Positions 5,669 through 18,666 of a DNA stretch of 64,000 nucleotides are shown one piece after another. How positions within the stretch are numbered: the first letter of the stretch is position 1; each line of letters starts with the position of its first letter. This DNA is from Methanothrix harundinacea 6Ac. Its GTDB lineage: Archaea; Halobacteriota; Methanosarcinia; Methanotrichales; Methanotrichaceae. The notes beneath the pieces are model-generated. The model saw nothing but the letters and a program-made list of their open reading frames with translations, made no database searches and was not told the DNA's origin. Location: NCBI RefSeq assembly GCF_000235565.1, contig NC_017527.1, forward strand, positions 1,116,001-1,180,000, written 5' to 3'. The position numbers and the translations under genes were made by a program.

Positions 5669-6421
5669 CTAGCCGGTCAGCAGGTCCGCGAGCCCCTCCA
5701 CCTCCGCAACTGCAAAGTCGAACTCGTCACCTGCGAGCCCCGCCCTGAAGATCTCCTTCTTCTCGGGGATCGCCGCCGCCACCCTCTCTTTCTCCAGAAA
5801 CTCGAGCATGGCGGCTTTCCGCTCCTCATCGACTCGGTTGAGGACGAAGTAGAGGGGCTTATTTATCTTCTTGGAGATCTCGGCGATCTTCTTCGATAAG
5901 AGGAGGGATTCGTAGGAGGGGTCCAGGACCGCCAGAATGGCGTCGCACCCCGCCTCGATCCCGCGGCCGAAGTGCTCTATCCCCGCCTCGGTGTCGACGA
6001 TCACCATCTCCTTATTCCCCACTGCGAGGTTGTCGAGGAACTTTCTGGAGAGGGCCCCCATGGGACAGGCGCACCCCTCCCCGAAGTCGTGGATCTTCCC
6101 GATGGCGAGAAGCCTGATCCCGTCCTTCTCCGTCGTCGCCTCGGCGGGGATGGAGGCGAAGGTCCACTTTTCGTCGAAGAGGGAGGCCTCCTCGCCCCCG
6201 GCGAAGGACCTTCTCATCTTCCCCATCATCTCCTTCTTTCCCCCGAAGTGGTCCATGAGGGTGGACGGAAGCTCCATCCCCAGCTGCCGGTGGAGGCCGT
6301 AGTTCGACTCGTCGCTGTCCACCACCAGAACGTTGAATCCTCTCTTTGCCATGCTCTTCGCCAGGAGCGCCGCAACGGTGCTCTTGCCGCTCCCGCCTTT
6401 TCCGCATACCAGAACTTTCAT
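5669..6421 (-). CDS. cooC: CooC-type Ni-insertion ATPase for CO dehydrogenase
   Basis: A 250-residue MinD/CooC-family ATPase. The deviant P-loop GKGGSGKST is at residues 8-16 and the VVDTEAG switch follows. The CXC metal motif is C117-X-C119 in GEGCACPMG. CooC proteins use ATP to load nickel into carbon monoxide dehydrogenase, a key enzyme of acetoclastic methanogens as part of CODH/ACS. The gene is last in a minus-strand run with a FecCD-type ABC transporter, 55 bp after the ATPase gene, which suggests the transporter supplies nickel (inference). Confidence 0.85.
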   Translation of the reverse strand: MKVLVCGKGGSGKSTVAALLAKSMAKRGFNVLVVDSDESNYGLHRQLGMELPSTLMDHFGGKKEMMGKMRRSFAGGEEASLFDEKWTFASIPAEATTEKDGIRLLAIGKIHDFGEGCACPMGALSRKFLDNLAVGNKEMVIVDTEAGIEHFGRGIEAGCDAILAVLDPSYESLLLSKKIAEISKKINKPLYFVLNRVDEERKAAMLEFLEKERVAAAIPEKKEIFRAGLAGDEFDFAVAEVEGLADLLTG

Positions 6422-6476: not shown

Positions 6477-7313
6477 CTAAAGGGGGAGGATGATCCTGCG
6501 GCCGTCGATCTCGAGGATCTCCACCTTCATCCCGTAGGCATCCTCTATATTCTCTGGGGTCATCACCTCTTCGGGGCGGCCGTAAGCCACCACGTTCCCC
6601 CCGGAGGGGGCGTCTCTCCTCAAAGCCGGATGATGTACTGCCCCATCTCCTCCCTTCGGGAGGCGTCGCATCAGGACCACCCGGTCGGAGTAGGCGAGGG
6701 CGTGGTTTGGGTCATGGAGGGTCATTATCACCGTCACCCCCTCGGTTGCGGCTATAGAGGTGACGGTCTTGAGGACCCTCACCTGATTTTTGAAGTCCAG
6801 GTAAGACGTCGGCTCGTCCAGGAGGAGGAACCTCGGCTCCTGGGCGAGGGACCTGGCGATCATCACCATCTGCCTCTCTCCGCCGCTGATCTGGGTGTAG
6901 GGCCGGTCCGAGAGATGGCCCGCCCCCACCAGCTCCAGGGCTCGGCGGGCCACCTCGAAGTCCCTGGCCCCGGGGGACGAGAAGTTGGAGATGTGGGGGA
7001 GCCTCCCGGTGAGGACTATCTCGAAGGAGGTGAAGGGAAAGGAAGATCGGTGCCCCTGGGGGACGTATCCGATAACCTGCGCCAGCTCCCTCGCCCCCAT
7101 CTGGGAGGCGATCTTTCCGTCGATGACCACCGACCCCGAGGCTGGCTTCAGGAGGCGGTTTATCGTCTTGAGAAGGGTGGTCTTGCCGCAGCCGTTCGGC
7201 CCCAGGAGGGTCACCTTCGACCCCCGATCTATGGAGAGGTCTATCCCGGCGAGGATCGGCATCCCGTTGTAGCCGAAGCTCAGATCCCGCACCTCTATGC
7301 CGCTCATTCCCAT
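6477..7313 (-). CDS. ABC transporter ATPase, FecE/BtuD type
   Basis: A 278-residue nucleotide-binding subunit with Walker A GPNGCGKTT, signature ISGGERQMV, Walker B FLLLDEP and the switch histidine in TLHDPNHAL. It energises import of a metal complex or corrinoid by the permease encoded just upstream, which it overlaps by 10 bp. The C-terminal extension after the core (YGRPEEVMTPENIEDAYGMKVEILEIDGR) is typical of the iron-siderophore/B12 branch. The substrate cannot be read from sequence; cooC downstream favours nickel. Confidence 0.88.
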   Translation of the reverse strand: MGMSGIEVRDLSFGYNGMPILAGIDLSIDRGSKVTLLGPNGCGKTTLLKTINRLLKPASGSVVIDGKIASQMGARELAQVIGYVPQGHRSSFPFTSFEIVLTGRLPHISNFSSPGARDFEVARRALELVGAGHLSDRPYTQISGGERQMVMIARSLAQEPRFLLLDEPTSYLDFKNQVRVLKTVTSIAATEGVTVIMTLHDPNHALAYSDRVVLMRRLPKGGDGAVHHPALRRDAPSGGNVVAYGRPEEVMTPENIEDAYGMKVEILEIDGRRIILPL

Positions 7314-8365
7314 CCCCCCGCCCTGGTCCGTCTCAGGAGATATGCGAAGAAGGGAGCCCCGATGAGGGTGGTGATGATCCCTACGGGGACCTCAAATCCG
7401 AGGGCAGCCCGGGCCAGGTCGTCGACCAGGACCATGAAGGTCGCCCCGAAGGTTATGGAGAGGGGTATGAGGGTCCTGTGATCCGGCCCGAAGATCATCC
7501 GGAGGATATGGGGGACTATAAGACCCAATAGGCCGATGATCCCTGCCACCGCCACGGCCGAGGAGGAGGCGAGGGCGGCAGAGATTACAAAAATGCCCTT
7601 GTACCTTTCAGGGTCCATCCCCACCGACCGGGCCTCCTCATCCCCCAGGGCGAGGACGTTCAGCCTCCAACGGAGGGAGAGGATGCCTAGACACCCCAGG
7701 AGGGCGAGGGGAAAAGAGCTTTCAAGCTTCGACCAGCTCGCGGTGTTCATGCTCCCCATCATCCAGTAGACTATGCTCTGGAGAGCCCTCTCGTCGACGG
7801 CTATCTGGACGATGGCCAGGAGGGACGAGAAGACCGCCGAGACGATCACTCCTGATAAGACCAGAGAGACGACCGGAGTCCTCCCTTCGGTCCTAGCCAT
7901 GGAGCAGGCGACGGCCACGGCGAGGAGGCTGAAGATGAAAGCGGAAAGCTGCACCGGAATCCAGGAGACCACCCCCAGGGAGAGGGCAGCCCCGAAGGCA
8001 GCCCCGGAGGAGAGGCCGAGGATGTATGGGTCGACGAGGGGATTTCGGAAGATCCCCTGAAAGGCAGCCCCGGAGGCCGATAAGGCGGAGCCGACCATCA
8101 TCGACAGGAGGACCCTGGGGAGCCTCACCTGGAATATCACCGTCTCGTATACGGAGGGGTGTCCCATATCCATCCCGATCCGTGAGACGATCACCCCCGC
8201 AATCTCCCCCGTTGTTATAGGAAAGGTCCCGATGGTCATCGATATCAGGAAGGCCGGGATCGGCATCAGGAGGAAGAGGAGGACGAGGACCCTCTTTCCG
8301 ATAAAAGAATAATTATGGACTGCGTCCAATTTGCGCCGTCCATAATCGATATTCATCAGCGCCAC
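7304..8365 (-). CDS. FecCD/BtuC-family ABC permease
   Basis: A 353-residue permease with about ten membrane segments. It carries family motifs LPRVLLSMMVGSALSASGAAFQGIFRNPL, the glycine-rich GLSSGAAFGAAL, and GLIVPHILRMIFGPDHR near the C-terminus that docks the ATPase. It begins one base after the binding-protein stop and overlaps the ATPase gene, so the three are one transport operon. An internal ATG gives a slightly shorter form (MNIDYGRR). Confidence 0.9.
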   Translation of the reverse strand: MALMNIDYGRRKLDAVHNYSFIGKRVLVLLFLLMPIPAFLISMTIGTFPITTGEIAGVIVSRIGMDMGHPSVYETVIFQVRLPRVLLSMMVGSALSASGAAFQGIFRNPLVDPYILGLSSGAAFGAALSLGVVSWIPVQLSAFIFSLLAVAVACSMARTEGRTPVVSLVLSGVIVSAVFSSLLAIVQIAVDERALQSIVYWMMGSMNTASWSKLESSFPLALLGCLGILSLRWRLNVLALGDEEARSVGMDPERYKGIFVISAALASSSAVAVAGIIGLLGLIVPHILRMIFGPDHRTLIPLSITFGATFMVLVDDLARAALGFEVPVGIITTLIGAPFFAYLLRRTRAGGWE

Positions 8366-9400
8366 CTATAGAGCGGCGTATCCGGGATAGTGGACCGAGT
8401 ACATCTCCCCAAAGAAGCCGTCGAGCCTCTCGTCTATGCTCATATCGGCGAAGAGCTCGGGCTGGATGTTCCTGGCGAGGTGCATCAGGGCCATGGGCAT
8501 CCGGGGAGAGAAGGCGTCGAAGAGGAAGGGGTTCTCGATCTCGTAGACCCTCCCGTTCTTGACGGCGTTTATATCCTTCCAGCCCGCGAACTCCGTCCCG
8601 CTGATGACGTCCTCGGGGTCCAGCTTCTCGTTGTACCACATGTATATGACGTCGGGGTTGAGGCTGATCAGGGTCTCCAGGGGGACGGTGGGGTGCTCCA
8701 TCCGGCTCGCATCGTTCTCCCAGAAGTTCATCACGTTGATCCCGCCAGCCTGGTATATCAGGTCGTCAAAGCCGCTCTCCCTCCCGGCGGTCCCCAGGAC
8801 GTCGCTCCACATCCAGTAGACCTTCGGCCTATCCTCGTCGGATATCCCCTCCGTTGCCGAGGTGACCTCTTCCACGTAGCTCTTCATGATGGCCTCCACC
8901 TCGGCGGCCCTGTCAGCCCTCCCGGAGATGGTCCCCATCTCCCTCACCTGTTTGTACATGTCCTCGATGGAGGTTATGAAGACGGCGTAGACGGGTATCC
9001 CCAGGGTCTCCGTGATCGCCTTCAGGTTCTCGTCCTCCGGGGACGTCGCCCAGAGGACGACGAGGTCCGGCCCCTCGGCCGCCAGGGTCTCGAGGCTGAC
9101 GAGGCCGGAATCGAAGCCGATCCTCACCTTATCGTCGAACTTCGGGTCCACCGCCCGGAAGAAATCCTCTTTCAGCTCCCTCTTCCAGATGTTGTCGCCT
9201 ATGGCGAGGACCGTCTCGGGATCAGCTATCGAATAGTAGGTGTTGAGGGCGTTCTCCACCAGAAAGACGACCTTCTGGCAGGGCTGGTCTATGATGACAG
9301 TCCGCCCCAGGTCGTCTTCCAGCTCCACCGGCGCCCCCAGGGCGGGGATCGCCAGAAGAAGGCAGAGGGCGATCCTGGCCATATATCGAGATATCTTCAA
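8366..9400 (-). CDS. Metal-complex/corrinoid substrate-binding protein (TroA/BtuF fold)
   Basis: A 344-residue exported binding protein. A signal peptide (MARIALCLLLAIPALGA) is followed by DDLGRTVIIDQPCQKVV, the opening strand of Fe-siderophore/B12 binding proteins. LAAEGPDLVVLW and SLNPDVIYMWY are the lobe-closing strands. It is the first gene of the operon with permease, ATPase and cooC. It resembles the two dockerin-carrying paralogues at 9790 and 11068 in its core and its C-terminal YPG/YPA ending. A minus-strand TATA-like element (CTTATATAT) lies near 9487-9496. Confidence 0.88.
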   Translation of the reverse strand: MKISRYMARIALCLLLAIPALGAPVELEDDLGRTVIIDQPCQKVVFLVENALNTYYSIADPETVLAIGDNIWKRELKEDFFRAVDPKFDDKVRIGFDSGLVSLETLAAEGPDLVVLWATSPEDENLKAITETLGIPVYAVFITSIEDMYKQVREMGTISGRADRAAEVEAIMKSYVEEVTSATEGISDEDRPKVYWMWSDVLGTAGRESGFDDLIYQAGGINVMNFWENDASRMEHPTVPLETLISLNPDVIYMWYNEKLDPEDVISGTEFAGWKDINAVKNGRVYEIENPFLFDAFSPRMPMALMHLARNIQPELFADMSIDERLDGFFGEMYSVHYPGYAAL

Positions 9401-9542: not shown

Positions 9543-9722
9543 AGATAATTGACCATATATCTGACGAATCCGTGAGCTTTCAACTCGTCCACGGATTTAT
9601 CAAATATAAAAGATATATATCCGCTGTATTTGCAGGAGGATCATGCCGTGACTTATTTCATTCATCTGAATGAATTATATTCAATAATCTCTTTATAGCA
9701 AAAAAGATAACTTAATATGAAA

Positions 9723-9735: not shown

Positions 9736-9789
9736 TTGCGAATAATGTCTCCAATAAGATCGAACCCCTGGAGACGCGGAGGATCGGTT

Positions 9790-11067
9790 ATGAAAGGGAA
9801 GATGCTGGCATCAATCTTGGCGCTATGCCTGATGGTGGGGATATCGGCAGCCGATTTCACCCTCCACATCTACGGCAACGCCAACATGGACGACGTCATC
9901 GACGAGAGAGATATCGAATACGCCCGCGGCATCATCGACGGGACGGAAAGGATGACGGATCTCGCCGACGTCAACGGCGATGGCAATGTCGACGAAGAGG
10001 ACATAAGGCTGACAGAGGAGATCATCGACGGCACGGCAGCGGAGATCAAGGTGATCGACTCCGACGGTAACAGCGTCTCAGTAAAGGTGCCGGTGGAGAG
10101 GATCGTCATCTACAACCACCAGTGCGCAGAGATCCTCCAGATCCTGAACGCCGACGATAGGGTGGCCGGGGTTAGAGACACCTTCGAGACGCAGGAGAAC
10201 AGGTTCCCGCAGATCAGCAAGAAGAAGAACATCGGAAGCGGTGTCGACTTGGACATCGAGGCGATCATCTCCGTGGATCCTGATCTGATAATAGCCTACA
10301 CCTTCTACCCGACCAAGGAGGACCTGGAAGCGGAGCTCCCCTCGAAGATCCCCATCCTCCGGATCGACTGCGCCGGAGGGGGTCCCTGCGGGATCGACTC
10401 CATCAGGGACGGCGTATCGATCCTCGGATACCTCCTGGACGCGAGGGACGAGGCCGCAAGATACCAGGAGTGGCACGACAGGTACGTCGGTCCCGTGGAG
10501 GCCAGGACCTCCGCAATCCCTGAAGGGGAGAGGGTGAGGGTCTACCTGGAGTCCACCCCGGAGGGGTCCGAGACGATCTCCTCCAGGACCGCCATCGGAA
10601 AGAACCACCCGGCAGGAAACCTCATTGAGCTGGCGGGCGGGGTGAACATCGCCGCTGGCCACCTACCCCTCTACATGGATACCGACAATGAGTACGGCGA
10701 GATCGAGACGGAGTGGGTCCTGGAAGAGAACCCGGAGGTGATCGTCGGCAGGGCCATGGGAGCTGGGGTTAGGCCCTACGAGAACGAGGACGACTCCCTC
10801 CTGAGGGCCTACTCCGATCAGATCAAAGGCCTTCCTGGGTTCGACGGCGTCGACGCCGTTAAGAACGACCGGGTCTACATCATCACCAACGATCACGCCG
10901 TCACTCCCAACTATCCTTCGGCGCTCCTCCTCCTGGCGAAGTGGTTCTACCCGGAGATCTTCCAGGACCTCAACCCGAGAGAGGCCCACCTGGAGTACCT
11001 GGAGATGATGGGGATCTCAAAGGAGGTCGCGAGTAAGAACACCTACTACTATCCGGCGGTGGCCTGA
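9790..11067 (+). CDS. Dockerin-module metal/corrinoid-type substrate-binding protein
   Basis: A 425-residue exported protein starting at ATG 9790, seven bases after GGAGG. A signal peptide is followed by two dockerin-type EF-hand repeats: GNANMDDVIDERDIEYARGI and ADVNGDGNVDEEDIRLTEEI. The calcium ligands D/N1, N3, D5, D9 and D12 are present, with Asn replacing Asp at position 1 of the first. After a linker comes a TroA/BtuF-type binding domain (VPVERIVIYNHQCAEILQIL, SVDPDLIIAYT). Dockerins bind cohesins or mediate assembly, so a solute-binding protein with a dockerin is unusual. No permease follows; it may feed the divergent FecCD-type permease. Confidence 0.82.
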   Translation: MKGKMLASILALCLMVGISAADFTLHIYGNANMDDVIDERDIEYARGIIDGTERMTDLADVNGDGNVDEEDIRLTEEIIDGTAAEIKVIDSDGNSVSVKVPVERIVIYNHQCAEILQILNADDRVAGVRDTFETQENRFPQISKKKNIGSGVDLDIEAIISVDPDLIIAYTFYPTKEDLEAELPSKIPILRIDCAGGGPCGIDSIRDGVSILGYLLDARDEAARYQEWHDRYVGPVEARTSAIPEGERVRVYLESTPEGSETISSRTAIGKNHPAGNLIELAGGVNIAAGHLPLYMDTDNEYGEIETEWVLEENPEVIVGRAMGAGVRPYENEDDSLLRAYSDQIKGLPGFDGVDAVKNDRVYIITNDHAVTPNYPSALLLLAKWFYPEIFQDLNPREAHLEYLEMMGISKEVASKNTYYYPAVA

Positions 11068-12441
11068 ATGACCCTGAAGCTTCCGATCGATGGGTTTGGT
11101 ATCGTCTTTGTCGCCCTGGCGCTGGCAGCGATGCCGGCGTCCGCGGCCCTGGGGATCTTCGGCAACACCAACATGGATGATACCATAGACCAGCTTGACA
11201 TAGAGCACGTCCGGGGGATCATAGACGGCAGATACGAGAAGACCGATCTCGCCGACGCCAATCGAGACGGCGCCATCGACGAGGAGGACATAGCCCAGAT
11301 CGAGGCGATCATCGCCGGAGAGGAGACGGTCCTCAACATCTTGGACGGAAACGGCGAGCCCGTCGCCGTCCACAAGCCCGTGGAGAGGATCGTCGTCGAG
11401 TACCTGGACAACGCGGAGCTCGTCTCCATCCTCAACTCAAAGGATAAGGTGGTGGGGGTCGACTACGCCGTCGCCAAGAGCGAGGCACAGTTCCCGGACC
11501 TCGCCAGGAGGAAGAACGTCGGCCAGATGAACGAGCCGGACTACGAGGCGGTCCTCAGCACAGACCCGGACCTCCTCCTCACCTTCTCGCCCATGAACAT
11601 CAAGACCAAGGCCGATAACCTTCCCGGGGTGGACGTCGTCTTCCTCGGCCTCTACTTCCCGGATATAAGCGACCCCGCAGGCTCGAAGTACGTCGACGGG
11701 GTGAGGAAGCTCGGCTACATCCTCGACGAGGAGGAGAGGGCGGAGGAGTTCATCCGCTGGAACCTCGGATGGGTGGAGGAGATAAGATCCAGGGCAGCCG
11801 GAGTCCCCGAAGAAGAACGGCCGAAGGTCCTCATCTCTGCCTACCCTTACGCCCACCTGGACACCGGGACCTTCCGGACCTACTCCATGATCGACACCCT
11901 CACCCAGATGGCGGTCCTCACCGGCGTCAGGGTGATGGCGGAGGACCTCCCCGAGTTCTTCGGATCTTCCTACAACATCCAGGTCGATCCGGAGTGGGTG
12001 ATAGAGTCGGACCCCGACTTCATATACCTCCATCTGGTAGCCCACACCTACAGCGGCCTCTCCCTGGAACCGGCGAACGGCTACGATGCCACCGACCCTG
12101 CGGGGATCAGAGCAGCAAGGGACGCCTTCACCAGCCGGCCGGAGCTCGCCGAGATGAGGGCGGTGAAGGATGGAAGGGTCTACCTCGGGAGCGGCTCCTT
12201 CAGAAATGACGCCACCGGCGGCCTCATCGGCGCCGCCTACATGGCAAAGGCCTTCCTCCCCGAGGTCTTCGCCGACCTCGACCCCGAGGCGATCCACCAG
12301 GAGTACATCGAAAGGTTCCTGGGTGAAGACTTCGACCTCGATCAGGGCGGAGTCTTCCTCTATCCGGCGGTAGAGAAGGGCGACGGCCGGCTGGCGGGTA
12401 TTCCCGAAGAGGATAGCGAGAGCTTCTATACCGCCTCCTGA
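11068..12441 (+). CDS. Second dockerin-module substrate-binding protein
   Basis: A 457-residue tandem paralogue of the previous gene, starting directly after its stop. It has the same order: signal peptide, two dockerin repeats (GNTNMDDTIDQLDIEHVRGI and ADANRDGAIDEEDIAQIEAI), then a TroA/BtuF-type domain starting with VHKPVERIVVEYLDNAEL. It carries a longer C-terminal tail than its neighbour. The two proteins are diverged enough to have different ligands. Their co-translation with no membrane partner suggests they serve one shared permease (inference). Confidence 0.82.
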   Translation: MTLKLPIDGFGIVFVALALAAMPASAALGIFGNTNMDDTIDQLDIEHVRGIIDGRYEKTDLADANRDGAIDEEDIAQIEAIIAGEETVLNILDGNGEPVAVHKPVERIVVEYLDNAELVSILNSKDKVVGVDYAVAKSEAQFPDLARRKNVGQMNEPDYEAVLSTDPDLLLTFSPMNIKTKADNLPGVDVVFLGLYFPDISDPAGSKYVDGVRKLGYILDEEERAEEFIRWNLGWVEEIRSRAAGVPEEERPKVLISAYPYAHLDTGTFRTYSMIDTLTQMAVLTGVRVMAEDLPEFFGSSYNIQVDPEWVIESDPDFIYLHLVAHTYSGLSLEPANGYDATDPAGIRAARDAFTSRPELAEMRAVKDGRVYLGSGSFRNDATGGLIGAAYMAKAFLPEVFADLDPEAIHQEYIERFLGEDFDLDQGGVFLYPAVEKGDGRLAGIPEEDSESFYTAS

Positions 12442-12477: not shown

Positions 12478-13212
12478 TCACCTCCCGGCCTTCCCCTCCT
12501 CTCCGCCCTCGATGCGGAGAAGTCGCCCTCCCCGGAGGAGCGCCACCTCCTGGGCCAAGAAGCCCACCACCTCGGGATGGTGGGAGATGAGGAGGTAGCC
12601 GATCCCCCTCTCCCTCTGGAGATCCCGGAGGAGGTGGAGGATCTGGGCCTGGACGGAGACGTCGAGGGCCGACGTCGGCTCGTCGAGGACGAGGACCTCC
12701 GGCTCCAATATGAGGGCCCTTGCCAGGGCTATCCTCTGGTTCTGCCCCCCGGAGAGCTGCGAGGGGAGGCGGTCCAGGACCTCCGCCTCCATGCCCACCA
12801 CCTCCAGGACCTCCCGAACCTCTTGCCTCCCGCCCCCCTGGACACCCCTCAGGTCCAGCACCTCCTCTAGGCTTCTCCTGATGGTCTTTCTCGGGTTGAG
12901 GGAGCCCTCAGGATCCTGAAATATCATCTGGACCCTCCGGCGGAAAGCCTTCCGCTCCCCGCCCCTCAGATCCCGGAGGTCCCGGCCTCTATAGAGGACC
13001 CGGCCGGCGGTGGGGGTCTCGAGCCCGGCTACGATCCGGGCGAGGGTGGTCTTCCCGGAGCCCGACGGCCCCACCAGCCCCAGGGTCCTCCCCTCCCCGA
13101 TCTCCAGGGTCACATCCTCCAGGACGACCCTCGTCCTCCTCCGGACGATCCCCCTGGAGAAGGCCTTGCCTATCCCCACCCCCCTCAACAGCGTTCCCAG
13201 CACCTCCACCAT
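12478..13212 (-). CDS. Opp/Dpp/Nik-type ABC ATPase (OppF-like)
   Basis: A 244-residue nucleotide-binding subunit with Walker A GPSGSGKTT, signature LSGGQNQR and Walker B VLVLDEPTSALDVSVQAQ. It is the last gene of the Opp/Nik-type operon and overlaps the OppD-like gene by 28 bp. It lacks the C-terminal peptide-transporter Cys-rich extension, as NikE-type subunits do. The substrate is either an oligopeptide or a nickel complex; the metal-rich neighbourhood favours a metal (inference). Confidence 0.87.
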   Translation of the reverse strand: MVEVLGTLLRGVGIGKAFSRGIVRRRTRVVLEDVTLEIGEGRTLGLVGPSGSGKTTLARIVAGLETPTAGRVLYRGRDLRDLRGGERKAFRRRVQMIFQDPEGSLNPRKTIRRSLEEVLDLRGVQGGGRQEVREVLEVVGMEAEVLDRLPSQLSGGQNQRIALARALILEPEVLVLDEPTSALDVSVQAQILHLLRDLQRERGIGYLLISHHPEVVGFLAQEVALLRGGRLLRIEGGEEGKAGR

Positions 13213-14228
13213 CTCCTGCCGTCGGACCTCAGGGGCGGCGGCCCCGATCTGCAGCCCGGCTCAGCCCAGGAGCACCGGGGATGGAAGAGACAGCCCGGGG
13301 GTCGGCGGACCGCCGAGGGGGAGGAGCCGGGGATGGGATGAAACCCCTGCCCAGGGAGGGACTTGAGGAGGGCCAGAGAGTAAGGGTGGCGGGGCCGCTC
13401 CAGGACGTCGGCCACCGGCCCCGTCTCCACCACCTCCCCGGCGTACATCACCGCCAATCGATCGGCTGTCCTGCGGGCCACCTCCAGGTCGTGAGTTATC
13501 AGGAGCATCGACGAGCGGTTCAGATCCTTTATGATATCGATCTCCCGGCAGACCTCCCAGACCAGCTCCTGATCCAGCCCCTTCGTCGGCTCATCGGCGA
13601 TGATCAGCCTGGGCCCCGCCACCCCGGCGGCGGCTATCATCGCCCGCTGGTTCATCCCCCCGGAGAGCTGGAAGGGGTACATCCCCCCCCGGCCTGCGAG
13701 CCCCAGCCTCGATAGGATCGAATCCGCCATAGACCGCGCCCCGGCCGGTGAGGCCCGGCCGCCTATGAGGGCCGATTCTGCTACCTGATGGCCTATGGTG
13801 TAGACGGGGTTAAGGGAGAGGGACGGATTCTGGAATATCATCGAGATCTCCCTCCCCCGGACTCTCGCCATCTCCCTCTCCCCCAGCCCCAGGAGGTCGC
13901 GCCCCCCAAAGAAGATCTCCCCCTTTACCTCCGCATAGCTGGGGAGGAGCTGAAGTACCGAGGCTGCAACCACCGATTTTCCGCATCCTGTCTCCCCCAC
14001 CAGGGCCAGGGTCTCCTCCCTTCTGATATCCAGGCTCACATCCACAGCGGCATGGACCGTCCCAGCCTCCGTGGGAAACTTCACAGAGAGCCCGCGGATG
14101 GAGAGGAGCGCCTCCCCTTGGAGCTTCTCACCGGGACGCGACACCCCTCTCCTCTCACCATCACCGTTTACAGCCGAACTGCTCGATGCCATCTCTTCCA
14201 CCCTAGATCTGTTAATGCCTCCAGCCAA
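13185..14228 (-). CDS. Opp/Dpp/Nik-type ABC ATPase (OppD-like)
   Basis: A 347-residue ATPase with Walker A GETGCGKS, signature LSGGMNQR and Walker B LIIADEPTKGLD. The C-terminal oligopeptide-transporter extension is CLFHPRCSWAEPGC. The first ~40 residues before LLSIRGLSVKFPT are low-complexity and may be overcalled; a later start (ATG at residue 13) is possible. It sits between the OppC-like permease and the OppF-like ATPase. Confidence 0.87.
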   Translation of the reverse strand: MAGGINRSRVEEMASSSSAVNGDGERRGVSRPGEKLQGEALLSIRGLSVKFPTEAGTVHAAVDVSLDIRREETLALVGETGCGKSVVAASVLQLLPSYAEVKGEIFFGGRDLLGLGEREMARVRGREISMIFQNPSLSLNPVYTIGHQVAESALIGGRASPAGARSMADSILSRLGLAGRGGMYPFQLSGGMNQRAMIAAAGVAGPRLIIADEPTKGLDQELVWEVCREIDIIKDLNRSSMLLITHDLEVARRTADRLAVMYAGEVVETGPVADVLERPRHPYSLALLKSLPGQGFHPIPGSSPSAVRRPPGCLFHPRCSWAEPGCRSGPPPLRSDGRRWWRCWERC

Positions 14229-14299
14229 GATCAGCTCGTACCCGTGAATCCGTCAAAGATGCCGGCCACCCCTCCAAACAGCATCCTCCAAACAGCATC

Positions 14300-15145
14300 T
14301 CACCCCTTCATTCCGGCATGCACCTCTTCCTTTTCCAGGTCCATGCTCATCAGGACCAGAGAGAGGACGAAGAGGGTTATGCAGATCCCCGGCGGGAGGT
14401 ACCACCACCAGTAGCCGTTGATGAATCCACCTCTGGCGAAGGCGAAGCTGATGGTCGTCCCCCAGCTCCGGGCTGTGGGGTCCACAAGCCCCAGAAAGCT
14501 TATGGACGCCTCCGCGATCATCGCCGAGGCGACGGTGAGCATGAACTTGGGGAGGATGACGTGGACGGTGTTGGGGAGGACGTCCGTCAGGATTATGTGG
14601 CGGTGGGGAAAGCCGAGGCACCGGGCCGCCTCCACAAAGCTCATCTCCCTCACCTGGATCGCCCGGGACCTGACCACCCGGGCCATGGAGGGCCACCATA
14701 AAAGCCCCATCAAGAGGGCGATCATCCAGAAGCTGGGGCGGAGGAAGGCGGCCAGGGTTATTATCAGGGGGATCTGGGGTATCATCAGGACGACATCCGT
14801 CAGCCCCATCAGCACCTCGTCGGCCCAACCCCGATAGTACCCGGCGACGAGCCCCACCATCGTCCCCAGGAGGGTGGCCAGAAGGGCTGCGCCAAACCCG
14901 ACGGATATGGAGATCCTGGACCCGTGGAGGAGCTCCGAGAGGAGGTCGTTGCCCATATCGTTGGTTCCCAGAGGGCGGCTCCAGGAGGGGGGCTGGTAAG
15001 GGTCGAACCGCGCCCTGGGGTCGGCCGGAGAGATCACCGGAGCGAGGATCGCCGCCGCCAGAAATCCCGTAAGCAACAACACGCCGATCCATCTCATGGG
15101 GCTGGCGACCGCCCCGGCCCTGCCGAAGGGTCCGGGAATTACCAT
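14300..15145 (-). CDS. Opp/Nik-type ABC permease (OppC/NikC-like)
   Basis: A 281-residue permease with about six membrane segments. It has the N-terminal PLGTNDMGNDLLSELLHGSR loop of OppC/NikC proteins and the EAA motif around FVEAARCLGFPHRHIILTDVLPN. It overlaps the upstream OppB-like gene by 7 bp, as expected for an operon. Confidence 0.88.
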   Translation of the reverse strand: MVIPGPFGRAGAVASPMRWIGVLLLTGFLAAAILAPVISPADPRARFDPYQPPSWSRPLGTNDMGNDLLSELLHGSRISISVGFGAALLATLLGTMVGLVAGYYRGWADEVLMGLTDVVLMIPQIPLIITLAAFLRPSFWMIALLMGLLWWPSMARVVRSRAIQVREMSFVEAARCLGFPHRHIILTDVLPNTVHVILPKFMLTVASAMIAEASISFLGLVDPTARSWGTTISFAFARGGFINGYWWWYLPPGICITLFVLSLVLMSMDLEKEEVHAGMKG

Positions 15146-16098
15146 CCTCCGCCTCCCCCGGATCTGACCCTGGGGTCTACGACTCCGTATATCAGGTCCG
15201 CCAGGATGTTAGCGATGATCACCATCACCGTTATGATCAGCATGGCTCCCTGGAGGACGGGGTAGTCCCGGCAGAGGACCGCATCGTAGATCAATAGCCC
15301 CATCCCGTTCATGGAGAAGACTATCTCTATGAAGAGGGCGCCGCTGAATATGAAGCCGAAGTCGAGGGCTATGAGGGTTATGATCGGGAGGATGGCGTTC
15401 TTGAAGACGGAGGCGAAGAGGATCTCGTCCCGATAGAGACCCTTGGCCCTGGCGTAAGAGACGTAGAGGGACCTCTTCTCCTGGATGACGCTCCCCCTCA
15501 TGATCATGAAGTTTCTGGAGGCGGCAAAGAGGGTCATGATGAAGACGGGAAGAAATAGGTGATGGAGGACGTTCAGGGGGTCTCCGGTGAGGTAGACCCC
15601 CTTCAGGGGAAACCAACCCAGCTTAAAGCCCAGGATATAAACCGCCACCAGGGATATGAAGTAGGGAGGGGAGCTGTAGATGGCGATGGCGGCCAGGGTC
15701 TGAAGCCTCCGGGACCCCCTCCCCTCGTCCCAGCCGGCGAGGGCCCCGAGGTACGTCCCCAAAAGGGCCCCCATGACGATGGAGGGCAAGACCAACAACA
15801 GGGTCCACCGCATCCTGCTCCAAAGAAGGTCTGTCACCGGAGAGCGGAAGTGATAGGAATAGCCGAGGTCCAGCCGTCCGAGGGCCTTCATGTAGCCTAT
15901 GTACTGGGTGGAGAGGGGCTGGTCGAGGCCCATCTTCTCCCGCATGGCTTCGGCGGCGGCCCCCGAGAAGTATACGACGTCCTCTCCCAGGAGGTTCGTC
16001 ATGGTGTCCCCAGGCATCATCCGCGGGATGGCGAAGTTGAGGGAGAGGATCAGGAAGAGGGCGAGAAAGTACCTGGCCAGCTTGACCTTATAGACCAT
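15139..16098 (-). CDS. Opp/Nik-type ABC permease (OppB/NikB-like)
   Basis: A 319-residue permease: N-terminal membrane anchor, MPGDTMTNLLGED, the large loop with LGYSYHFRSPVTDLLWSRM, and the EAA motif YVSYARAKGLYRDEILFASVFKN. It forms the heterodimeric channel with the OppC-like protein. About 170 bp separate it from the methyltransferase gene upstream, so it may have its own promoter there. Confidence 0.88.
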   Translation of the reverse strand: MVYKVKLARYFLALFLILSLNFAIPRMMPGDTMTNLLGEDVVYFSGAAAEAMREKMGLDQPLSTQYIGYMKALGRLDLGYSYHFRSPVTDLLWSRMRWTLLLVLPSIVMGALLGTYLGALAGWDEGRGSRRLQTLAAIAIYSSPPYFISLVAVYILGFKLGWFPLKGVYLTGDPLNVLHHLFLPVFIMTLFAASRNFMIMRGSVIQEKRSLYVSYARAKGLYRDEILFASVFKNAILPIITLIALDFGFIFSGALFIEIVFSMNGMGLLIYDAVLCRDYPVLQGAMLIITVMVIIANILADLIYGVVDPRVRSGGGGGW

Positions 16099-16268
16099 GC
16101 CCGTAATCCCTCCCTCAGCATTTCAGGATCCATTTCGCAGAATCTATTTAACCGTTAGAGGTCCCGGATTGTTCCGGACCTGATGACCCTCCCCCCCCCT
16201 GAATCCTCCATAGGGGATGAGATGGCCTTCCGCCTGTGAGAAGTCTTGGGTTCGCAGAAACGTCAGAG

Positions 16269-17084
16269 TCACCCCAGCCTGTAGAGGAGGGCGTCATCGC
16301 TCTTGACCCTGACCCAGGGCTCTTCTCCTTCGGCGATCCCGTCCATCGATGACCCCTTCTGAGGGGCGGCGATCCTCCCCCCATCCTCAAGATAGCGCAT
16401 GATCTCTTCCGGGCTCCTGGCAGATGAACAGAGCCCGTGAAGGATGCAATGGAGGGGCAATACGTAATCCCGGGAGAAGATCTCCACCTGGAAATCGTAA
16501 CCCATCTCCTCCAGGATCTGAATCAGACAGGAGTAATCCACCTGTAGCCTCGGACCATAAACGAACTCCTGGAGGGGGTCCATCCTTCCTGCCCTGAAGA
16601 CCAGGAGCACCCCTCTGGAGGATACATCTATCATCTTTTTTAGAAAAGAGTAAACGTCCTCCTCGAAGATGCTGTAGGCGGCAAGGGAAAAATCCAGATC
16701 AACCAGCTGACGGGGATCGACCTCCCCCCAGCGGGAGCTGATGATCTCGATGTTATATATCCCTCTGGAGCGGGCCTTCTCTTCCAGAACCCTCAGCTGA
16801 TGGGTGGAAGGGTCCAGGGCCAGAACCCTTCGCATCCTCGGTGCCAAGGGTATGGCGAAGGCCCCGGTCCCCGCCCCGACATCCAGGAGAGAGCTTCCGG
16901 GGGGGATGAGGGAAGAGACCCTCTCCAGGATCTCCCCCGGATATCCGGACCGCGCCAGAACCTCCTCATAGACGGGGGCGTACTCCCTCCAGAACTGGTC
17001 GTTTGTGATCCCCCGCTCCTGCAGTATCCGCTGGTAGCTGGTGGATTTTACATATTCCCTCCAGAGGTCCCTCCACCGGCTCAT
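16269..17084 (-). CDS. Class I SAM-dependent methyltransferase within the Opp/Nik-type operon
   Basis: A 271-residue methyltransferase. Motif I is SLLDVGAGTGAFAIPL, motif II is VLALDPSTHQL, and an SLAAYSIFEEDVYSFLKK region follows. It starts 4 bp after the stop of the family-5 binding protein and precedes the permease genes. A methyltransferase between the binding protein and permeases is not part of the standard peptide/nickel operon. It might modify a small chelator imported or used with the metal; that is a hypothesis from position only. Confidence 0.78.
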   Translation of the reverse strand: MSRWRDLWREYVKSTSYQRILQERGITNDQFWREYAPVYEEVLARSGYPGEILERVSSLIPPGSSLLDVGAGTGAFAIPLAPRMRRVLALDPSTHQLRVLEEKARSRGIYNIEIISSRWGEVDPRQLVDLDFSLAAYSIFEEDVYSFLKKMIDVSSRGVLLVFRAGRMDPLQEFVYGPRLQVDYSCLIQILEEMGYDFQVEIFSRDYVLPLHCILHGLCSSARSPEEIMRYLEDGGRIAAPQKGSSMDGIAEGEEPWVRVKSDDALLYRLG

Positions 17085-17088
17085 CTCC

Positions 17089-18666
17089 TCAAGCCCTCTC
17101 CACGTTCAGGAAGTTGTCCAGGTTGTATATCCCATAGAGGGGGTCTGAAACCCATTCCTGCCAGCGGGAGTTGTAAGGCGTCTCCACCTTGTTCCAGTAG
17201 AGGGCGATCCCGGGAAGGTTCTCTGCGTAGTAGTCCTGAACCTGGTGGGCGTACATCTCCAGCTCCTCCCCGCTGGTGGCGGCCAGGATGTCATCACAGA
17301 TCTGGTGGAAAGACGGATCGTCCAGGACGTGGAGGACCCCCTCACCGGTCCGCCGGGAGTCGAAGTATCCCGTCCCCCAGTTGGCGTGCATCATCATCCC
17401 CCAGGGGGTGGTGCGGGTGACGGTCAGATCGTACTGGTAATCGTCCTTCATCGTTATCCAGGTACTCTGGTCTGCCGTCTTTATCCCCGTCTTGATCCCA
17501 ATATCGGCGAGGTACTCCTGGAGCAGCTCCGTTATCCGCTGGTAGTCTGCCCGGGTCAGGAAGGTGAGGTCGATCATCTCTCCGTCTGGGGTCTCCAGGA
17601 ACCCGTCCCCATTGACGTCCGTGTAGCCGGCCTCCTCCAGCAATCTTCGAGCCTCCTCGGCGTCGTAGATGAGCTTTTCCGTCTCCTTGAAGTATCCCAT
17701 GCTGGGGGGCACAAATCCCCGGTTGGGGACGGAGCCGTAGTCGAGAGCGTCCAGCTTAAGAATCTCCTGGTAGTCTATAGCGCTGGCGAGAGCCTCCCGG
17801 AAGGCGGGGTCGGACATGGGGGCCTCTCTCAGGTTGAGGCCGAGGAAGATGAGGCCGGTGTTGTCCGTCTCCACCACGTCGAAGCCTCCGGCGCTATCGA
17901 GGGCGGCGAGGTTGGCGTAGGGATAGGTGCCCGCATACTTGTAGTATGCATCCACATCCCCCTTCATCAGGGCCATGGAGAGGACGTCCATATTTGCATA
18001 CATGTGGATCTCCACCCCCCCAATCTTTGCGGCCTCGCCTTCCCAGTAGGGATTTTTCTCGAAGTATAGGACGCCTGCAGCAAGGTCGGTCCTGGAGATG
18101 ACGAAGGGACCGAAGCCCACCACGGGACCCTCATCCACATGGACCATGGGATCTTCGACATCCTTCCAGACGTGCTCCGGGAGGATGTTGTAGGTGGCAA
18201 ACTCCAGGTTGAGGCGGGAGTAGGGCTTGTTTAAGGCAAAGACGACCGCATCCCCCTCCACGGCGATCTCCTCCACGGTGTCCTTGATCCATCCTGCGGG
18301 AGGATATTTCTCCCCTAGGTACTCGAAGGTGAACCTCACGTCCTCAGGGGTCAACTTCTCCCCATCGCTCCAATAGAGGTCATCTCGGATCTGGAAACGC
18401 CAGGTTTTCCCATCCTCCGAGACCTCATAGCTCTCCGCCGTCTGACCCACCACCAGACCGCTGGGGTCCATCTTCATCAAGGGCGGGTTGGATAGATGGG
18501 CAAATAGGCTCATGAAAGTGTCACCGACAACGCTTGGGGACTTGATGACGTTGGGCGTTCCGATCTTCAATACCGTTTCCCCTGATCCTGCCGAGACGCC
18601 TGTAAAGGCGACCAGGAGGAGGGCCAGGAGAAGGATAGATGAAATCCTTCTGATGTCGTCTCTCAT
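17089..18666 (-). CDS. Family-5 (Opp/Nik-type) extracellular solute-binding protein
   Basis: A 525-residue exported binding protein with signal peptide (ISSILLLALLLVAFTGVSAG). The family-5 core includes PPLMKMDPSGLVVGQTAESYEVSEDGKTW, DDLYWSDGEKLTPEDVRFTF and AIDYQEILKL. It is the first gene of the operon with the methyltransferase, two permeases and two ATPases. A 13-bp palindromic box lies 11 bp before its start codon. Peptide or nickel-chelate are both possible ligands. Confidence 0.87.
   Translation of the reverse strand: MRDDIRRISSILLLALLLVAFTGVSAGSGETVLKIGTPNVIKSPSVVGDTFMSLFAHLSNPPLMKMDPSGLVVGQTAESYEVSEDGKTWRFQIRDDLYWSDGEKLTPEDVRFTFEYLGEKYPPAGWIKDTVEEIAVEGDAVVFALNKPYSRLNLEFATYNILPEHVWKDVEDPMVHVDEGPVVGFGPFVISRTDLAAGVLYFEKNPYWEGEAAKIGGVEIHMYANMDVLSMALMKGDVDAYYKYAGTYPYANLAALDSAGGFDVVETDNTGLIFLGLNLREAPMSDPAFREALASAIDYQEILKLDALDYGSVPNRGFVPPSMGYFKETEKLIYDAEEARRLLEEAGYTDVNGDGFLETPDGEMIDLTFLTRADYQRITELLQEYLADIGIKTGIKTADQSTWITMKDDYQYDLTVTRTTPWGMMMHANWGTGYFDSRRTGEGVLHVLDDPSFHQICDDILAATSGEELEMYAHQVQDYYAENLPGIALYWNKVETPYNSRWQEWVSDPLYGIYNLDNFLNVERA

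Follow-up and report, generated by a model that had tools for sequence, protein, structure and literature searches.

Dockerin-fold modules on secreted substrate-binding proteins of Methanotrichaceae in which no cohesin is detected

Introduction

What does a dockerin do on a substrate-binding protein (SBP) when no cohesin can be detected in the same genome? The question is raised by two adjacent genes, P1 and P2, in a window of 64,000 nucleotides, the whole stretch of DNA analysed here. The host is an archaeon with a genome of 2.57 Mb (chromosome of 2,559,043 bases), whose nearest named relatives are Methanothrix and Methanocrinis; these hosts are acetate-using methanogens, highly important for methane production. 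To our knowledge, no role is established for those dockerins of archaea that lie outside cellulosomes.

Dockerin-bearing ABC substrate-binding proteins have been published for ANME archaea (PMC9012536) and, therefore, the architecture as such is not new. Like P1 and P2, the ANME proteins join a dockerin to TroA-like or NikA/OppA-like SBPs; however, several ANME groups encode many cohesins, whereas none is detectable in the source genome or in the module-bearing members of its family. New here are the family-wide expansion without cohesin and the rewritten contact face, neither of which was found in the literature searched; searches for dockerins in Methanothrix likewise returned nothing relevant. 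Relatives that carry cohesin, dockerin-SBP and importer in one operon make the surface tethering of capture proteins directly testable, and the cohesin-less Methanotrichaceae provide the contrast case, in which either the receptor was swapped or the dockerin outlived its partner.

Two tandem SBPs with an N-terminal module of predicted dockerin fold

P1 and P2 are adjacent on the plus strand, the ATG of P2 following directly on the stop codon of P1 (Table 1). In both proteins a signal peptide is followed by about 60 residues with two EF-hand loops and then by an SBP domain, so that the open reading frames, the intact loops and the Peripla_BP_2 matches bear out an earlier note on this DNA, which had described two EF-hand repeats joined to a binding domain in each protein. 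Both the Peripla_BP_2 domain and the fold place P1 and P2 among the class III SBPs. In a PDB structure search the SBP domain matches YiuA, FepB, CeuE and BtuF, and this fold is common to FecCD-type class III SBPs, heme binders included; the YiuA/FepB/CeuE/BtuF-type proteins, in contrast, lack a dockerin, and here the SBPs outnumber the permeases. The AF2 model of whole P1 has a pLDDT of 87 and a pTM of 0.87, with most of the module at pLDDT 94-98. The start of P1 was placed at the ATG at 9790, which is conserved among relatives; a longer reading frame with a TTG start at 9736 is not conserved in them and was rejected. The AT-rich block 5' of the gene is likely the promoter/TATA region of P1.

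By Pfam alone, the modules are not dockerins, since their Dockerin_1 (PF00404) scores, 16.4 bits for P1 and 15.7 bits for P2, do not reach the cut-off of 22.9; matches to PF00404 at E <= 0.001 occur in 23 other genomes of Methanotrichaceae. Neither loop of P1 or of P2 lacks a calcium-ligand position, and the module consensus of 20 aligned relatives is tight (xTLxIFGNANMDDxIDExDI...LADANxDGxIDExDI). With a family profile, which includes the P1 and P2 rows themselves, homologous modules reach E of about 1e-27. The module of P1 modelled on its own has a mean pLDDT of 93 (five models span 93 to 72), and the top 29 PDB matches of this model in Foldseek are all solved dockerins (best E 5e-3, TM about 0.7); the modest E-values reflect the shortness of the domain. 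The alternative of a generic calmodulin-like EF-hand was rejected, as Foldseek ranks dockerins first. The predicted fold of the P1/P2 module is that of a dockerin, with two F-hand calcium loops and their helices in dockerin topology; the dockerin call of the earlier note thus holds for the AF2 model and the loops, but not for PF00404. As compared with the type I cellulosomal dockerins of Clostridium thermocellum (1ohz, 2ccl, 8x39), the modules share the two-loop fold in the predicted model, the calcium ligands and the length of about 60 residues; they differ in scoring under the Pfam cut-off, in their N-terminal position on an SBP, in their acidic or variable contact positions and in having no cohesin.

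Table 1. Features at and around the P1-P2 locus (positions in the window)
Feature	Position	Strand	Evidence
CooC/MinD-like P-loop NTPase	5669..6421	-	CbiA E=1.4e-14
ABC ATPase, same operon as FecCD	6477..7313	-	ABC_tran E=4.9e-32
FecCD permease, candidate shared permease	7304..8365	-	FecCD E=2.7e-87
SBP without dockerin, divergent	8366..9400	-	Peripla_BP_2 E=2.7e-19
AT-rich block 5' of P1, consensus TTTGATAATCTATTTATAGC	9655..9720	+	conserved in four relatives
P1, secreted class III SBP with N-terminal dockerin module, 425 aa	9790..11067	+	Peripla_BP_2 E=2.5e-23
P1 dockerin module, immediately behind the signal peptide	9853..10041	+	module-only AF2 model, PDB matches
P1 EF-hand loop 1, NANMDDVIDERD	9877..9912	+	sequence; ligand positions 1, 3, 5, 9, 12 intact
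P1 EF-hand loop 2, DVNGDGNVDEED	9967..10002	+	sequence; ligand positions intact
P2, second SBP with N-terminal dockerin module, 457 aa	11068..12441	+	Peripla_BP_2 E=6.8e-18; module E=6.4e-28
P2 dockerin module	11146..11319	+	sequence, family profile
P2 EF-hand loops, NTNMDDTIDQLD and DANRDGAIDEED	11164..11199 and 11254..11289	+	sequence

Search for a cohesin in the Methanotrichaceae

A search of the genome for cohesins had been named beforehand as the check on anchoring. In the source genome, which is 99.9% complete, neither PF00963 nor an archaeal cohesin profile detected a cohesin, an absence in terms of profile searches; the archaeal profile was positive in five of five cohesin-positive controls from other families. 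A cohesin encoded in the same genome, as expected of a cohesin-dockerin system, was thus not detected for P1 and P2. The pattern extends to the family: PF00963 cohesins occur in 117 of the 238 genomes of the class and in only one of 50 Methanotrichaceae genomes (G235), where the match is weak, the module is missing and the archaeal profile gave no match. With the latter profile, no cohesin was found in any of the 34 module-bearing Methanotrichaceae genomes, the source genome included. Among the 36 genomes from other families that carry the module, 32 also encode a cohesin (Fisher test applied). Independently, Table 2 of PMC5244752 credits Methanosaeta concilii, a member of this family, with 17 dockerin domains and 0 cohesin domains; the pattern is thus already present in that table.

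The mechanism as literally proposed earlier could be rescued if the genome did encode a cohesin that has diverged beyond the reach of sequence profiles, and if P1 and P2 docked on it. We consider this distinctly unlikely. Cohesin sequences do change fast, and relatives pair a cohesin with the same SBP architecture; however, the archaeal profile, which picks up cohesins in several families, drops to zero in the 34 genomes, the contact positions of the dockerin changed in parallel (see below), and no secreted anchored gene recurs beside these SBPs besides a CARDB-type candidate. The latter, a secreted anchored protein encoded near P1/P2 in two relatives and missing from the window, was rejected as a receptor: it is of the CARDB/NEW3 exporter-associated kind and has no similarity to cohesins.

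Cohesin-bearing relatives and the contact positions of the loops

The situation is different in relatives outside the family. Four genomes of Methanosarcina type (G151, G154, G161 and G171), which share one genus label and which we take to be Methanosarcina, encode, beside a dockerin-SBP gene, a small secreted one-cohesin protein whose C-terminus is of the archaeosortase type, and the two genes abut or overlap by a few bases. The dockerin-SBP gene is followed by genes for a methyltransferase and for FecCD, and in three of these genomes FecE was read as well. Pfam confirmed cohesin and PGF-CTERM in both Methanosarcina-type proteins tested. Dockerin-SBP clusters lie beside cohesins in two other lineages as well. 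In G313 an SBP array adjoins a PGF-CTERM protein with one cohesin and a second protein with four; G259 has, beside its dockerin-SBPs, a membrane protein with one cohesin and a protein that combines four cohesins with a dockerin of its own. These gene orders strongly support the view that, in cohesin-bearing relatives, surface cohesins tether dockerin-SBPs beside an ABC importer. No earlier account of an operon with cohesin, dockerin-SBP and importer was found in the literature searched; the comparison covers those searches, with the 2009 review of noncellulosomal dockerins (Peer et al.) standing outside it.

Among the main residues through which a cellulosomal dockerin contacts its cohesin are those at positions 10 and 11 of each loop. 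In the cohesin-adjacent lineages these positions are fixed as [VM][KR] in one loop and [IVMP]L in the other, namely M-R and P-L in G313 and its relative G341, M-R and V-L in G259, and [VM]K and [IM]L in the Methanosarcina types. Two genomes of the same genus as the latter (G164 and G175) have the module without a cohesin and are also off the [VM]K/[IM]L pattern. In Methanotrichaceae, positions 10/11 are occupied by E and a variable residue, and in 71 nonredundant paralogs position 11 is, in either loop, among the most variable of the module; recognition residues conserved in both repeats, as a cohesin-dockerin pair would have them, are not found. Several residues that do not bind calcium are specific to the family and almost invariant, namely A at position 2, M at position 4 and E at position 10 of loop 1, together with Q and E in helix 2. 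The anchoring to a cohesin proposed in the earlier note thus finds support in the operons of the cohesin-bearing relatives, but not in the present organism, where cohesin is undetected and the contact positions are rewritten.

Spread, constraint and possible role of the module

The module was detected in 34 of 50 Methanotrichaceae genomes, in at least 241 copies; module-bearing genomes have from one to at least 27, two of them reaching the latter figure. In every family locus that was read it sits on an SBP, close behind the signal peptide, and the protein continues after it for a median of 331 residues. The mean identity among the 71 paralogs is 63% for the module and 34% for the SBP domain, and nearly all of them, as P1 and P2, have both loops intact. 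For the orthologs of P1 and P2 the dN/dS of the module is mostly 0.13-0.5 (62 codons, noisy), which argues that the module is maintained; by these substitution rates it is under purifying selection. The likeness among modules follows lineage. Within genomes, the identity of module and SBP domain amounts to 91% and 39% in G313 and to 97% and 37% in G259; for the module in Methanotrichaceae it ranges from 51% to 87%, so that one strict receptor is not required.

These observations could be explained as follows. Our leading though tentative reading, held at a little under even confidence, is that of an archaeal cohesin-anchored uptake system in which the cohesin was lost and the dockerin was kept, most likely because it serves another calcium-dependent contact at the surface, common to these SBPs. 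P1 and P2 would be secreted SBPs for a metal chelate or a metallo-tetrapyrrole, each with a true dockerin fold at the N-terminus. In the ancestor, lipid- or membrane-anchored cohesins would have tethered dockerin-SBPs to the cell surface, next to a FecCD/ATPase importer. For the Methanotrichaceae, we infer that the cohesin was lost rather than never present; the calcium-binding dockerin would have been retained under purifying selection while its cohesin-contact positions were rewritten. Most probably it would still bind in a calcium-dependent way, now to another surface partner that the SBPs have in common, such as the sheath, the S-layer, a permease or another SBP, and the SBPs would hand their ligand to a few shared FecCD importers. 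That the dockerin set of the family switched as a whole from cohesin to a different shared receptor on the importer, the sheath or the S-layer, and so assembles many SBPs into one uptake hub, appears possible but doubtful.

The main rival to a receptor contact is that the module is a calcium-stabilised N-terminal spacer or a vestige, which after the loss of cohesin binds nothing and aids folding or secretion or caps its own SBP. The variability of position 11 in both loops would fit this explanation, as would the modules of G203, G205 and G234, only 51-59% alike within each genome. Furthermore, in close orthologs the module does not evolve more slowly than the SBP domain, and its conserved residues are largely those required by the EF-hand fold. 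Three loci of the source genome (L001, L005 and L007) encode SBPs with a degenerate one-loop N-terminal module (e.g., PGDGDGDLIVSDGEL), which fits a loss of function in part of the set. On the other hand, the near-fixed family-specific residues are not calcium ligands, both loops persist in nearly all paralogs, and the module-bearing SBPs expanded instead of vanishing; on balance a spacer or vestige seems rather unlikely.

Alternatively, the likeness of modules among tandem paralogs could result from gene conversion or copying and say nothing about a common partner. Tandem-copy arrays do exist: in G200, contig 78 (L089:15479-20000 and L090:1-15010) carries a run of 14 module-SBP genes, all on one strand, over about 20 kb, their SBP domains being divergent, and further arrays are found on contig 23 of the same genome, in G205 and in G237. 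The near-identity of the modules within G313 and G259 would also be expected. However, in G259 similar modules sit on two unrelated SBP families, Peripla_BP_2 and SBP_bac_5, and modules are alike across genera of Methanotrichaceae in genes whose downstream domains have diverged to the low identity given above, which makes this explanation highly improbable. Two loci encode fused double dockerin-SBP proteins, L043:3244-5748 (834 residues) and L046:5501-8266 (921 residues). A further array, in a contig labelled Bacteroidales (L042), is near-identical to the archaeal SBP array of L040, from a Methanosarcinales MAG; the contig is probably mis-binned.

Neighbouring genes, importer and ligand

As remarked earlier, the P1-P2 operon itself contains no permease gene; a complete SBP-FecCD-ATPase operon (6477-9400, minus strand) lies divergently about 390 bp upstream of P1. 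This operon has its own SBP; it adjoins P1 also in L036, but in two close relatives (L033 and L034) it is missing from the interval that separates P1 from the CooC-like gene. The CooC/MinD-like NTPase gene is found near P1 in all three of these loci, and a 61% identical homologue lies within the dockerin-SBP cluster of G259. Module-bearing genomes have about 2.8 Peripla_BP_2 SBPs per FecCD, as against 27:31 in module-free genomes, the SBP counts being lower bounds in three genomes.

In relatives, dockerin-SBP arrays have genes for CobN-type chelatases, for NifH and NifDK-like proteins and for a HutW-like radical SAM enzyme among their neighbours, which points to metals or tetrapyrroles as ligands; from this gene context and from the fold matches of the SBP domain, a metal or corrinoid ligand class is plausible for P1 and P2. 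CobN-type chelatase genes stand beside genes for dockerin-SBPs or half-dockerin SBPs in L091, L092, L093, L094 and L100, and likewise in the source genome (L104:8133-11909); some of these loci also have NifH/NifDK-like operons and a HutW-like radical SAM gene. Literature searches on methanogens in which CobN occurs together with SBPs and nitrogenase-like genes returned nothing relevant.

Other genes recur in these surroundings. A membrane protein of about 315 residues is found in dockerin-SBP loci with and without cohesin (L092:14530-15474 and L120:3040-3978), both copies matching Pfam Gate, weakly in L092; L114:9833-10780 is likely a further copy. In the window, a Dpp/Nik-type importer operon (12478-18666, minus strand) encloses a SAM methyltransferase gene, and methyltransferase genes recur near dockerin-SBP loci in many genomes.
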